Shown here: positions 1 to 27,367 of the stretch, in pieces
Numbering within the stretch: the stretch's first letter is position 1
Layout of the letters: each line of letters begins with the position of its first letter
DNA from: Candidatus Zixiibacteriota bacterium
GTDB taxonomy: Bacteria; JAAXHH01
Length of the DNA stretch: 33,887 bases
Direction of reading: 5' to 3'
Assembly (NCBI GenBank): GCA_016867335.1
Contig: VGJU01000013.1
Span: 1 to 33,887 of the forward strand
Program-made: the position numbers and the translations under genes
The notes under the pieces: generated by a model
Databases searched by the model: none
What the model saw: the letters and a program-made list of their open reading frames with translations, nothing else
What the model was told of the DNA's origin: nothing

Positions 1-1539
1 GATACAGGCGATGCCGCAACTAAGCGTCACGTAAAATTCCGTATCGTCTGACTGCTGACGTAGCTGTCCAAACCGCTCGCGGATTTCGTCCATCAGCCGG
101 ACGGCGTTGGCGGCGTCCGCGCCGACAAGGATGATGGCAAACTCCTCGCCACCATAGCGTCCTACGATGTCTGTCTGCCGGAGTCGTTGCTGGATCAAGC
201 GCGCCAGATTTTTGAGCACCCGGTCGCCTGTAGGGTGACCATAAGTGTCGTTGACCGATTTGAATCGGTCGATGTCGGTCATGACAAACGCCAATGGCGC
301 TTTTTGGCGCACCGCGACGGCATGTTCGCGGTAAAGTTGTTCCATGGTCGTGGTGTGGTTGAGCAAACCGGTCAGGCTGTCCCGTACCATAAACGAACGC
401 AATACCCGTGCCCGCTGCACACGGGCCGTCAGTGAGGCCACCAGTTGCTGGGTGGCGATCGGTTTGGTAAGAAAATCGTCGCCGCTGACCTGAAGCGCGT
501 CGAGGTGGTGGTTGAGATTGGCCTCGGTAGACAAAAATACCAGCGGAATGCTGACATACGCCCGCTGCTGACGGATGACTGCCGCAAGCTCCAACCCGCC
601 GCATTTCGGCATATACAGATCGAGGATGACAAGGTCCGGGCGAAAATCGTCGATCGCGGTAAGCACTTCCAAGGGATTCTGGAGAATCCGAGTCAACATG
701 CTGGCCTGACGCAAAGCGCTGGCATAGTAGTTCGCCAGCCTTTCGTCAGCGTCGATGATCAGAATCCGATACGGTTCGGACGGACGTTTGTGCGAAAGAC
801 GATCAAGGGTATCAACCACTTGGGGCGCTTCCACAGGTTTGAGAAAAAAAGCTTTGCTACCTGCGCGCACCGCCTGAAGCCGACTGTTCATATCTCCGTA
901 CGAGGAAAGCGTAATCATGGGTATCGGCGTATCGCCGGAGCGCGGGAAGATCATAAGCGCCTCGTAGGCCATGGGTACATCGATAAAACTGTCCAGATCG
1001 ACGATCAGCACCTCCGGCTTTTTCCCTTGACGAATATCTTCGATCCGCATCGAAGACCGCACCGCATAACCGAAATACCGGAGTTGCTGTCTGAGATCAG
1101 CCGTTTCCTCCGGCGCATGCTCCAACAGAAAAATTTCGGTAGCCTCTTCCTCTTGTTCCGGTACGATGCCCATGGTGGGTGAAGCAAGCCGCGCCTCGCG
1201 CTCCAGCATTTCCGCCAGGTGTTTTTTCATAGTCTGCAACTCATCGGCGATCTGACGCACCTGCGTGCTCATAAGCGGCGCATGGCCGTCCACGATGTTC
1301 CGGAGTACCGCCTCGAGACTGCTGGCAATCTTGCTGATGCGGGGAAAACCGAACGTCGTTCCCGAACCGTTCAGCCGGTGTATCAGACCGTAAAAGGTGT
1401 CCAACGATTCGCGGTCTTCGGATCGCGCCCGCAACTTTTCCCACAACTGCTCTGCCGTTTTTATTTCGTCGGGAAGACCTTCAAGATAGCTCTGTCGGAG
1501 TATTTTGAGGTTGTTTTCCGTCTCGTCGGGGTTTGACAT
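1..1539 (-). CDS. Hpt-REC-REC-GGDEF diguanylate cyclase / response regulator (C-terminus cut by window edge)
   Basis: This frame is open from an ATG at 1539 to the window edge, giving 513 residues with the end missing. An N-terminal helical Hpt-like domain carries HRLNGSGTTFG, with candidate phospho-His 54. It is followed by two receiver domains (about 135-250 and 257-372) and a GGDEF domain (about 385 onward). REC2 has the usual ILDLYMPKCGG with Asp307 and a lysine in FLTKP. REC1 has VDLD but lacks the normal acidic pair, so it may be degenerate. The cyclase site reads RYGGEEF (about 461-467) and is preceded by RQTD, which fits the RxxD product-inhibition site; this predicts an active c-di-GMP synthase controlled by phosphorelay. 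An AAGAGG-like ribosome site lies about 8 bases upstream. It follows glgX on the same strand after 152 bp. The domain reading is firm, the signal and partner kinase are unknown. Confidence 0.9.
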   Translation of the reverse strand, partial: MSNPDETENNLKILRQSYLEGLPDEIKTAEQLWEKLRARSEDRESLDTFYGLIHRLNGSGTTFGFPRISKIASSLEAVLRNIVDGHAPLMSTQVRQIADELQTMKKHLAEMLEREARLASPTMGIVPEQEEEATEIFLLEHAPEETADLRQQLRYFGYAVRSSMRIEDIRQGKKPEVLIVDLDSFIDVPMAYEALMIFPRSGDTPIPMITLSSYGDMNSRLQAVRAGSKAFFLKPVEAPQVVDTLDRLSHKRPSEPYRILIIDADERLANYYASALRQASMLTRILQNPLEVLTAIDDFRPDLVILDLYMPKCGGLELAAVIRQQRAYVSIPLVFLSTEANLNHHLDALQVSGDDFLTKPIATQQLVASLTARVQRARVLRSFMVRDSLTGLLNHTTTMEQLYREHAVAVRQKAPLAFVMTDIDRFKSVNDTYGHPTGDRVLKNLARLIQQRLRQTDIVGRYGGEEFAIILVGADAANAVRLMDEIRERFGQLRQQSDDTEFYVTLSCGIACI

Positions 1540-22752: not shown

Positions 22753-22780
22753 GATAGGATCCTTTCGGGGATGGGTAAAA

Positions 22781-22861
22781 GGCGGGTTTGAAACCCCGGT
22801 AATTTGGGCGGGTTTGAAACCCGCCCCTACGGGCACGTTTGAAACCCGCCCCTACGGGCGC
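22781..22861. repeat. Palindromic GTTTGAAACCC repeat block (three units)
   Basis: Three copies of a GTTTGAAACCC core start at about 22786, 22812 and 22837 (spacing 26 and 25). The central copy is a perfect inverted repeat: GGGCGGGTTT (22806-22815), one G, AAACCCGCCC (22817-22826). CGCCCCTACGGGC follows copies two and three. The block resembles REP-like dispersed palindromes. It fills the gap between the small membrane protein gene and msrA and supplies the stop codon of the former. Confidence 0.8.
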
Positions 22862-23241
22862 GTATGTCGGCGTTGTGTGTAAAACGCCGAAAAATCGGGA
22901 TACGCATCCACGATGGTATTCCAGCGATCTTCGTATGTTTTTCGTCGGAAACGGCTATCCCGGCGAAACAGCCAGAAAGCGAGCAGGGTGATGGGTATCA
23001 GAAAACCCAAAAAAATCCATCCGAACGGTTTGCTGTTGGAAATAAGCCCTGTCATGGCGCTTAGCGTTCCGACGGATACGGCAAGCATACCAGCGGCCAT
23101 CGCCGCGGCTAGAAGGGCGATGATCAAGTCTTTGAGCGTCCCGCGCCAGCCGTGCGAGACGGCGCGGCGGTCGAGTTCTTCGGCAAGACGCGCATAAGTC
23201 TCTTGCCTATCCGTTATCGGTTCAGGAGGGGCGTTTTCCAT
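22852..23241 (-). CDS. Small inner-membrane protein of unknown function
   Basis: I do not recognise this 129-residue protein. It has a charged N-terminus (MENAPPEPITDRQETYARLAEEL) and two hydrophobic segments at about 40-63 and 74-91 with a short loop (ISNSKP). A basic linker (FRRDSRFRRK) and a hydrophilic tail follow, giving the pattern of a two-helix membrane anchor with cytoplasmic ends. AGGA lies 8 bases upstream of the ATG. The start overlaps the amidohydrolase end by 20 bases, so they are translated together. The final residues and the stop codon come from the repeat block, so the original C-terminus may have been altered by repeat insertion. Function unknown. Confidence 0.75.
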   Translation of the reverse strand: MENAPPEPITDRQETYARLAEELDRRAVSHGWRGTLKDLIIALLAAAMAAGMLAVSVGTLSAMTGLISNSKPFGWIFLGFLIPITLLAFWLFRRDSRFRRKTYEDRWNTIVDAYPDFSAFYTQRRHTRP

Positions 23242-24583: not shown

Positions 24584-26104
24584 TCAGTCGATTCGAATCG
24601 CCGGGTCGAGACCGGGAAAATTGGCCAGCCACGCCTGGCGTTCGCGTCGCAGCGTTTCGATACGCACGCGGTACTCGGCGGGCGTAAACTGCCGTGAAGG
24701 CGTATAACGATCCAGATCGACCCCCGGAATTGCTATGGGAACCTCATAGCCCCAGTTGGGGTCCGGAGTCCAGTTGATGCTGTTTCGGGCGATTTCTTTC
24801 ATGATTGTGGTCGAGATGTCGATGGTAATTTTTTCTCCGGCCCGACCTTCCCTTTCTCCCACGCTTCCGGTATTGAGCAAAAAACACTCGATATCCCGAT
24901 TAGCGCGAAGAATTTCCAGAAACCGATTGCCTTCTTCGGCTTCGGAGCCGATGATAAAGGGATTGGTACCCACTTCGCGTTTGGCCTGACCCGCTTTGGT
25001 AGGGTCGCCGGCGGATGTTTCGATGGATTCGCCCAGCATGAAATAGGTCGCGGCCTGTTCGGGTGTCAACCTCGCCACCGGCGGGACGATGTCTTGGCGG
25101 CGTGTGATGAACACGACCTTGTCGGCACGTTTGAGATCGATGGAATCGTCCGTCCCTGCCACTTCCGTACGCAGGATGATGCCTCTTCCGTTGGTCGTCA
25201 GCCGGTCGTCTACAAAATCCACGAGACCGTCTTCCGCTACGGTTACGTTTTCAAAGATGGCGTTTGGGCTGACAGCGGCATCGTAGAGCACCTTCTGGTT
25301 GGGGGTAAGCCCTTCGGTTTTGATATAAAAACCCTGTTCGGTTCCATAACAGGCGCCGTGGGCATCCATCAGCACCACGTCGTCCTGCCGGATGACGACA
25401 CGCTCCGGCTCCCTCAGACCGTGATCGTGGACGGTGAGCGTCGTTTTACCGGTTCCGCTCAGCCCGAACAGGATAAAACCCACATCGCGGATGACGCCCT
25501 CCGGCTGGCACACACGCAGCACCTTGCTGCCTGCATGAAGACCGATCCCGCCGCGTGTCTTGGCGATATACATCGCCATACGCAGAAATGATTTTTTGGA
25601 TTCCCCGAAATAGTCGGTTCCGAGGATACAGGTCAGCCTGTGACCGGGATGGACAAAGATAAGACGTTCCGGCCATTCGGGTACGAATATGCTGACCATG
25701 TCGGGTGTTTCGGCGGCTGCGGCGGGAAACAGGGACTGATGCCACATGTAGGCGATGCGGGCATAAGGTTTGGTGATATACAGACGGCCATGCAGCCGGT
25801 GGCCTGGTGTATCGCCCACGGTTCTGTCCACCTGAATGACTTCGCGATCTTTGAGATAGGCGCGAACCTCTTTGAGCACCGTCTCGGCCCGTTCAAGCGA
25901 AAGCCCTTGCTGTTGTACCCCCGGCTCCACACCACCCTCTACGATATAGGTGCGTCCGGCGCTCCGATTTCGCGCCTCGGATACATAGCTGGGGCTGCCA
26001 AACACCGTACGCCGTTCGTCGTGGCTGGCCAGAAGACGCAACGTCTCCCCATCCGGATTGACGATCAGAGATTTTGCTTCAAGATGACGACCGAAAATCT
26101 CCAT
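24584..26104 (-). CDS. pckA: Phosphoenolpyruvate carboxykinase (ATP), divergent type
   Basis: This 506-residue enzyme should convert oxaloacetate and ATP to phosphoenolpyruvate, the first step of gluconeogenesis. The ATP loop GLSGTGKTTL is at about 214-223 (Lys220), with RQDDVVLMD as a kinase-2-like segment and ILGTDYFGESKKSFL for the metal/PEP lysine region. YIKTEGLTPNQKVLYDAAVSPNAIFENV and the C-terminal TNPFIIGSEAEEGNRFLEIL match ATP-type relatives. It departs from the E. coli form in places: GLHAGSK stands where MHCSAN is usual, which marks a less-studied subgroup. The ATG at 26104 has GGAGG 9 bases upstream. The leader contains an intrinsic terminator (26171-26217) after a strong promoter, so expression may be controlled by attenuation. 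An unrelated phosphotransferase fold is unlikely. Confidence 0.9.
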   Translation of the reverse strand: MEIFGRHLEAKSLIVNPDGETLRLLASHDERRTVFGSPSYVSEARNRSAGRTYIVEGGVEPGVQQQGLSLERAETVLKEVRAYLKDREVIQVDRTVGDTPGHRLHGRLYITKPYARIAYMWHQSLFPAAAAETPDMVSIFVPEWPERLIFVHPGHRLTCILGTDYFGESKKSFLRMAMYIAKTRGGIGLHAGSKVLRVCQPEGVIRDVGFILFGLSGTGKTTLTVHDHGLREPERVVIRQDDVVLMDAHGACYGTEQGFYIKTEGLTPNQKVLYDAAVSPNAIFENVTVAEDGLVDFVDDRLTTNGRGIILRTEVAGTDDSIDLKRADKVVFITRRQDIVPPVARLTPEQAATYFMLGESIETSAGDPTKAGQAKREVGTNPFIIGSEAEEGNRFLEILRANRDIECFLLNTGSVGEREGRAGEKITIDISTTIMKEIARNSINWTPDPNWGYEVPIAIPGVDLDRYTPSRQFTPAEYRVRIETLRRERQAWLANFPGLDPAIRID

Positions 26105-26170
26105 GCGAGAAAACCTCCAAATTTCCTTTTTGCTTGCGCGGGAGCGATCCGGGTCTTTACCTGTACCCGA

Positions 26171-26217
26171 AAACAAAACGGGATGCCGATCGGTGCATCA
26201 ACGCCAGGCATCCCGTT
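26171..26217 (-). terminator. Intrinsic terminator / attenuator in the pckA leader
   Basis: On the minus strand AACGGGATGC (26217-26208) pairs perfectly over ten bases with GCATCCCGTT (26186-26177), followed by TTGTTTT. It lies between the pckA promoter and start codon, about 67 bases before the ATG. A second GATGC in the loop could pair instead with the same GCATC. The plus strand has no T run, so it acts on the minus strand only. Confidence 0.75.
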
Positions 26218-26256
26218 GTTCTGCCCCGTGATACGGACAAATTGCATAACATACAC

Positions 26257-26284
26257 AATATATGAGTGGATACCGGAAGGTCAA
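26257..26284 (-). promoter_or_regulatory. Sigma70-like promoter for pckA
   Basis: On the minus strand TTGACC (26284-26279), a 16-base spacer and TATATT (26262-26257). Transcription would start near 26250, about 33 bases before the terminator stem begins. Confidence 0.65.
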
Positions 26285-26296
26285 GAGGAGGGAAAG

Positions 26297-27367
26297 ATGA
26301 AGGAGGCGATGAAGTTTTTATTCCTACTTCCTACTTCCTACTTCCTACTTTCTTTTCTGTTTTTTATCTCCCCCGTTTACGCTCATTCCGGTCTTTCAGG
26401 GCCTTTTTCCGTTCGCGATCAGTTTCCGATCAAGCTTCTGTTTTTGAGCCTTCACCCCGAAGGGGCCGGGTTGTTGCCCGACGCAAAGCCTCTTTTTGCA
26501 GCCCGTTTTGTCTTTGGCAATACCTATGCCGTCACCCGGCCCGTGGGCGACCCGCGCGTAGCGCTCGACTACTATCAGGATGCCCCGCTTCGCGCTTACC
26601 GCGCGTTTGTAGATGCCGAAGTGCTGCATCTTACGGTGAAAGCGGACTGGCGCATCCTGCCTCGGCTTCAGGTCGGGATAGGTCTGCCGTTTATATGGCA
26701 GGGTGGTGGTTTTCTCGACGCGACCGTCGAAGGGTTTCACAAGCTGTTCCGACTTTCCAACGGCGGGCGCGAACAGACGCCCCGGAATGCCTATGGCGTT
26801 TTTGTGGCCCAGGACGGAAAACTGCGGATTGCACGCGAACACTCACCGGGCTGGCATCTCGGCGATATTACACTGCGACTCAAAACCCCGCTGCTTGTCT
26901 CAAAGGGTCCATGGCCCGACATTTCGGTCGCCGGGACCGTCAAATGGCCTACGGGACGGTTCGGGAGCCTGACGGGAAGCGGCGGGGTCGATACGCAGGC
27001 GGCGCTGTTGGTAACACAGCCGCTTGGAAAACGCGCGGCGCTCCACGCCAATCTCGCGTATACCCTACTCGGAAAATCGTCTCTCGGAACCGACCTTCCC
27101 GTTCGTTCGATTTTTTCTTGGATGATAGGTTTCGAATATCTTGCCACATCTCGCGTATCGGGTCTTGCCCAGGTACTCTCCAACACCAGCCTGTTCCCCA
27201 CCTATACGCTTGCCCCGCTCAACCGAACCGCATACGAAATCAACGCTGGGGTCAGGTTTCACATCGGATCGTCGGCGGTTTTCGAGACGGGGCTGATCGA
27301 GAATCTGAGTCAGCATCAGAATACACCCGATATCGGATTTCACGCGACGATCGGGATCCGGAGATAG
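26297..27367 (+). CDS. DUF3187 family outer-membrane protein
   Basis: This 356-residue protein starts with a signal peptide (MKEAMKFLFLLPTSYFL, cleaved near SPVYAHS). The body has the DUF3187 pattern GPFSVRDQFPIKLLFL, GLPFIWQGGGFLDATVEGFHKLFRLSNGGRE and many alternating strands up to a C-terminal strand pair (HATIGIRR). It is therefore a predicted outer-membrane beta-barrel of unknown function. GAGGAGG is 5 bases upstream of the ATG. The signal-peptide coding region carries four perfect TTCCTAC repeats (26321-26348). Copy number change would shift the frame. It is divergent from pckA and convergent with the LytTR regulator. Confidence 0.88.
   Translation: MKEAMKFLFLLPTSYFLLSFLFFISPVYAHSGLSGPFSVRDQFPIKLLFLSLHPEGAGLLPDAKPLFAARFVFGNTYAVTRPVGDPRVALDYYQDAPLRAYRAFVDAEVLHLTVKADWRILPRLQVGIGLPFIWQGGGFLDATVEGFHKLFRLSNGGREQTPRNAYGVFVAQDGKLRIAREHSPGWHLGDITLRLKTPLLVSKGPWPDISVAGTVKWPTGRFGSLTGSGGVDTQAALLVTQPLGKRAALHANLAYTLLGKSSLGTDLPVRSIFSWMIGFEYLATSRVSGLAQVLSNTSLFPTYTLAPLNRTAYEINAGVRFHIGSSAVFETGLIENLSQHQNTPDIGFHATIGIRR
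26321..26348 (+). repeat. Four tandem heptamers TTCCTAC inside the DUF3187 signal peptide
   Basis: Perfect copies at 26321-26327, 26328-26334, 26335-26341 and 26342-26348. The unit is seven bases, not a multiple of three, so gain or loss of one unit would put the start out of frame with the rest of the gene. Confidence 0.85.

Follow-up and report, generated by a model that had tools for sequence, protein, structure and literature searches.

A predicted intrinsic terminator between a sigma-70-like promoter and the pckA start codon in a Candidatus Zixiibacteriota bacterium

Terminators ahead of start codons and the pckA locus

In terminating riboswitches and ribosome-mediated attenuators, the terminator precedes the start codon of the gene. 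The pckA leader described here likewise has a putative terminator before its start codon, but it is without an aptamer-sized domain, an antiterminator of similar strength or a leader peptide with a ribosome site. Premature termination of this kind is common in bacteria, and termination by intrinsic terminators within the 5' UTRs of E. coli has been mapped with Term-seq (PMC7815308). The pckA leader resembles these E. coli cases in the order of its parts, namely a promoter, a short leader with an intrinsic terminator and the gene behind it, whereas it differs from them in being known from sequence alone, in having no known regulator and in belonging to an uncultured host. In Listeria, Rli51, which lies before mpl, combines attenuator and small RNA in one leader (PMC11394854). 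The likeness to Rli51/mpl is one of layout, since in both a metabolic or virulence gene is preceded at its 5' end by a short terminated RNA; an action in trans would be hypothetical for the pckA leader. A literature search for a pckA attenuator found no relevant paper.

The window, i.e., the whole stretch of 33,887 nucleotides that was analysed, contains the following features around the leader:

24584..26104, minus strand: pckA, phosphoenolpyruvate carboxykinase (PEPCK), subfamily NF006821 (PF01293, 262.6 bits; NF006821, 587.6 bits, cut-off 369)
26105..26169, minus strand: remaining leader as far as the ATG of pckA; contains a GGAGG ribosome site and a CGGGT/ACCCG hairpin; promoter search negative
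26170..26176, minus strand: T tract TTGTTTT (TTTTGTTTT when the two stem-closing T are counted)
26177..26217, minus strand: predicted terminator hairpin, 11 perfect pairs, 19-base loop, -23.1 kcal/mol
26219..26241, minus strand: weak 5' hairpin UUUGUCC/GGGCAGA, G-U pairs included, about -8.5 kcal/mol by folding
26257..26284, minus strand: putative sigma-70 promoter TTGACC-16-TATATT (15.5 with the genome-trained matrix, 17.3 with a larger training set)
26297..27367, plus strand: gene for a DUF3187 protein, divergent neighbour of pckA (PF11383, 109 bits; ATG at 26297)

In profile searches the pckA product reaches 587.6 bits with NF006821 but only 100 bits with the TIGR00224 equivalog, and hence belongs to a divergent PEPCK subfamily. 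Its start codon is the ATG at 26104, with the GGAGG upstream. The DUF3187 gene is indeed divergent, as had been predicted of the upstream gene, so that the terminator cannot be the 3' end of the neighbour. A search for a tRNA or small gene in the gap between pckA and the DUF3187 gene found none. Other genomes of the family and order have the neighbouring genes of the window grouped in the same way, which makes the contig part of that lineage. Towards DUF3187, the best sigma-70-like site is weak (7.8) and lies within pckA (26058-26085), so the gap offers no clear promoter for the DUF3187 gene; were this site used, it and the pckA promoter would face each other across the hairpin.

Candidate promoter and predicted terminator hairpin

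The promoter was evaluated against the genome's own usage. TTGACA is the most enriched hexamer in the divergent upstream regions, and 33 kb of these regions contain 33 sites that match TTGACA-16..18-TATAAT at 10 or more of 12 positions (2.4 in shuffles); the promoters of this genome resemble TTGACA-17-TATATT. A matrix was trained on the genome's other divergent regions, with the pckA region left out, and scores of at least 10 were reached in 52% of real regions and in 9% of shuffled ones. Because seeds were picked by consensus likeness, there is some circularity in the training, but none in the excess over shuffles. With 15.5 on this matrix, the site that the original prediction had called a good promoter holds up. 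Its elements on the minus strand are TTGACC at 26284-26279, a 16-base spacer and TATATT at 26262-26257, which places the expected transcription start at ~26250. The next independent site towards pckA scores only 2.1, and between the terminator and the ATG no sigma-70 site scored above 0 in a second matrix run with a larger training set (best -2.7); a search of the leader for a sigma-54 promoter was likewise negative. Only about half of the genome's divergent leaders show a matrix-detectable promoter, hence pckA may have a promoter of a different type past the terminator.

The stem begins ~40 bases after TATATT; its arms, again on the minus strand, are AACGGGATGCC (26217-26207) and GGCATCCCGTT (26187-26177), and seven of the 11 pairs are G-C. 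Intrinsic terminators are marked by a G+C-rich stem with a U tract directly behind it, and the pckA hairpin has the predicted form of one, with 65 bases from the T tract to the pckA ATG. Both the perfect stem and the TTGTTTT tail had been noted previously, with ten pairs instead of the 11 found here. Folding of the leader gives a z score of -2.8 to -3.0 (2 of 200 shuffles). In a genome sample of 1.76 Mb, taken as stretches, the 181 kb of intergenic DNA (881 regions) contain 19 stems with at least 11 pairs and at least six T, both strands counted, and eight Markov randomisations of this DNA contain none; the hairpin in the pckA leader is therefore very probably a working terminator. These elements and their excess over chance are directly observed. 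On the plus strand the hairpin has a weaker tail, TTGTTCT, and it may act in both directions. There is no second copy of the element in the genome, and a dispersed repeat was rejected on these grounds.

The position of the hairpin is less usual than its form. Hairpins of -18 kcal/mol or below with a T tract occur at 0.69/kb at convergent 3' ends, against 0.08/kb in the reversed control, and are rare in divergent leaders (0.09/kb), among which that of pckA is the strongest (748 kb in all comparisons). Stems with at least 11 pairs and at least six T are found in divergent leaders at seven sites in five places; a spurious antisense gene call accounts for one (C22), and others lie upstream, not downstream, of a good promoter. 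Genes were called by codon log-odds and greedy choice, so some of these region-class labels are wrong. A clear succession of promoter, terminator and gene without a second promoter was found in one other case in the 1.76 Mb, at C7:18828-19207, which consists of a promoter, a tRNA, a terminator, 68 bases and the next gene:

L055 18931-19004 (contig C7 of the same genome): tRNA-His gene (Rfam match), flanked by a promoter and a terminator of its own; a protein gene begins 68 bases further on

The tRNA-His unit is a control, in that the procedure recovers a true small RNA unit, and it demonstrates that as few as 68 bases can separate a stand-alone small RNA unit from the gene behind it. Since it shares the anatomy of the pckA leader, anatomy alone cannot decide between a stand-alone small RNA and an attenuated leader.

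Proposed termination and read-through, and the competing readings

There is, in our estimate, an even chance that the leader undergoes premature termination, yielding a short RNA, and that pckA is expressed through read-through. Transcription of pckA would begin at the sigma-70 promoter near 26250, most polymerases would halt at the intrinsic terminator ~75 bases downstream of the start, the terminated product would be a short RNA of ~78 nt ending near 26170, and the fraction of polymerases that read through would express pckA. Three steps of this are inferred, namely that polymerase uses the promoter, that most transcripts end at the terminator and that read-through feeds pckA. For this reading speak the genome-calibrated promoter, the sole one recognised towards pckA, the terminator, which is of the type typical of the genome's 3' ends and has no match in the random sets, the divergent neighbour, which leaves no 3' end for it to serve, and the lack of a competing fold during transcription. 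The putative terminator lies between a candidate promoter of the gene's own and the start codon, the position expected of an attenuator if that promoter is used. Against it stand the only close relative found, L002, whose hairpin is without a T tract, and the fact that the only other promoter-terminator-gene unit is a tRNA gene.

A self-contained switch, in which a ligand or the ribosome chooses between terminator and antiterminator, appears highly improbable. The original prediction had pointed to extra pairings, and both the second GATGC in the loop, able to pair with GCATC, and CGGGT/ACCCG are present; a short 5' hairpin also lies between the transcription start and the terminator. However, the leader up to the T tract folds with -32.4 kcal/mol when free, with -14.3 kcal/mol when the 3' arm is blocked and with -16.5 kcal/mol when the 5' arm is blocked, the last being the pairing of the second GATGC, which thus falls far below the terminator. 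Upon stepwise lengthening, the terminator fold dominates once the 3' arm emerges, and no antiterminator fold of comparable stability was found, as the alternatives lose by 16-18 kcal/mol; attenuation that depends on a protein or other factor would need no such fold. Ahead of the stem there are only ~33 nt with one weak hairpin, which leaves little room for a usual aptamer. A search for a leader peptide with its ribosome site before the terminator was negative, the sole reading frames running across the stem and beginning at or before the expected 5' end. Rfam gave no match to the leader at gathering score, and only chance-level eukaryotic matches at E up to 10, in agreement with the earlier statement that no known riboswitch class is recognisable; nor is the leader conserved in L002. 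Neither a self-contained riboswitch nor a leader-peptide attenuator is thus indicated by the fold loss, the ~33 nt and the missing ribosome-site frame. The original proposal, attenuation according to some signal or a short RNA with read-through, is supported in part: its signal-dependent half finds no support in these results, whereas the other half follows from the anatomy. As the leader shows no self-contained switch, any control in the termination and read-through reading would have to lie with a trans-acting factor, with coupling to another process or with the promoter itself, and the terminator might do no more than set a low pckA level.

It is unlikely, though worth some weight, that the terminator is passive, serving as a shield against unwanted transcription from the DUF3187 region or being a leftover of rearrangement, with a non-sigma-70-like pckA promoter downstream. 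The locus is rearranged, as relatives have OadB-OadA or another PEPCK in the slot, and some divergent regions of the genome, e.g., C1:18145-18460, have a terminator upstream of the promoter. Past the terminator, however, the best sigma-70 score is the -2.7 given above and the leader has no sigma-54 site, and the relatives with a tandem gene before DUF3187 have a gap of ~30-60 bases without a terminator, so that none existed to inherit. A terminator left by a former tandem gene was rejected on this ground, the gaps between OadA or canonical PEPCK and DUF3187 being short and terminator-free. Improbable as well is a stand-alone small RNA gene of ~78 nt between the divergent genes, with the pckA promoter unrecognised or pckA reached by accidental read-through. 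Its predicted anatomy, a discrete RNA flanked by a promoter and a terminator of its own, would equal that of the tRNA-His unit; on the other hand, searches of the rest of the genome and of 14 relatives yielded no counterpart of the short RNA (best E 0.04, short pieces), so conservation beyond one genome was not seen in the genomes searched, Rfam has no match, and the ~33 nt before the terminator fold weakly.

If the leader terminates most transcripts, a gene at the centre of gluconeogenesis would come under termination control, in a phylum that has seen almost no functional work, and the leader would be a defined element for reporter tests; if it does not, the terminator is an ordinary one. 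It is very doubtful that the leader is a novel type of regulated attenuator, at which a protein or other factor that senses oxaloacetate, PEP or the energy state would let polymerase past the terminator in the lineage that exchanged oxaloacetate decarboxylase for PEPCK.

Relatives of the leader and apparent enzyme exchange beside DUF3187

The sole close relative found for this PEPCK, 73% identical, comes from a genome of the same order (L002) with the same divergent DUF3187 neighbour, which limits the homologous leaders to two. Its intergenic gap aligns poorly with that of the window and reveals no conserved leader, and no good promoter towards pckA was found there (best score 7.0, genome-trained matrix). 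L002 has a hairpin of -15.5 kcal/mol, 56 bases before the start and without a T tract. AACGGGA is common to the 5' arms of both hairpins, which may be due to descent or to chance. Loss of the stem in relatives had been named as evidence against the original prediction; in this one relative, too few to decide, the stem-loop is kept and the T tract is missing, which goes part of the way towards that outcome. The leaders of distant PEPCK genes have no hairpin with a T tract, but at 36-46% identity they are too far to count against conservation, and the other genomes of the same family that were examined have no PEPCK.

The enzyme exchange at the pckA locus may be the more interesting biology. The slot adjoining DUF3187 (24584-27367 in the window; L177, L178 and L179-L185) holds either OadB-OadA or one of two kinds of PEPCK. 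In eight genomes of the same family, all without PEPCK, DUF3187 stands in tandem with OadB (PF03977) and an OadA-like gene; the genome of the window and an order-level relative (G014) have the divergent PEPCK and no OadB; and in a further genome (G015), likewise without OadB, DUF3187 is in tandem with a canonical PEPCK. The pattern is clear in the 11 genomes compared, although several of them are incomplete and eight are closely related to one another. Both OadB/OadA and PEPCK consume oxaloacetate, and the pattern, judged from gene content, looks as if one oxaloacetate-using enzyme had been replaced in situ by another.

Short repeats were also observed at the locus. The heptamer TTCCTAC is present in four exact copies at 26321-26350, within the signal-peptide region of the DUF3187 gene, and at this place the DUF3187 genes of relatives have short tandem repeats of different sequence (the GGATTGT and GTCACTC types in L002 and GATTGACTGATTGGT in L177); a change in copy number of such repeats would not always keep the frame. 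At 22766-22863 the window contains ~2-3 copies of a GGGCGGGTTTGAAACCCGCCCCTAC-type repeat, the perfect form of which is found on other contigs of the genome (L051, L071, L127) and is a dispersed palindromic repeat.
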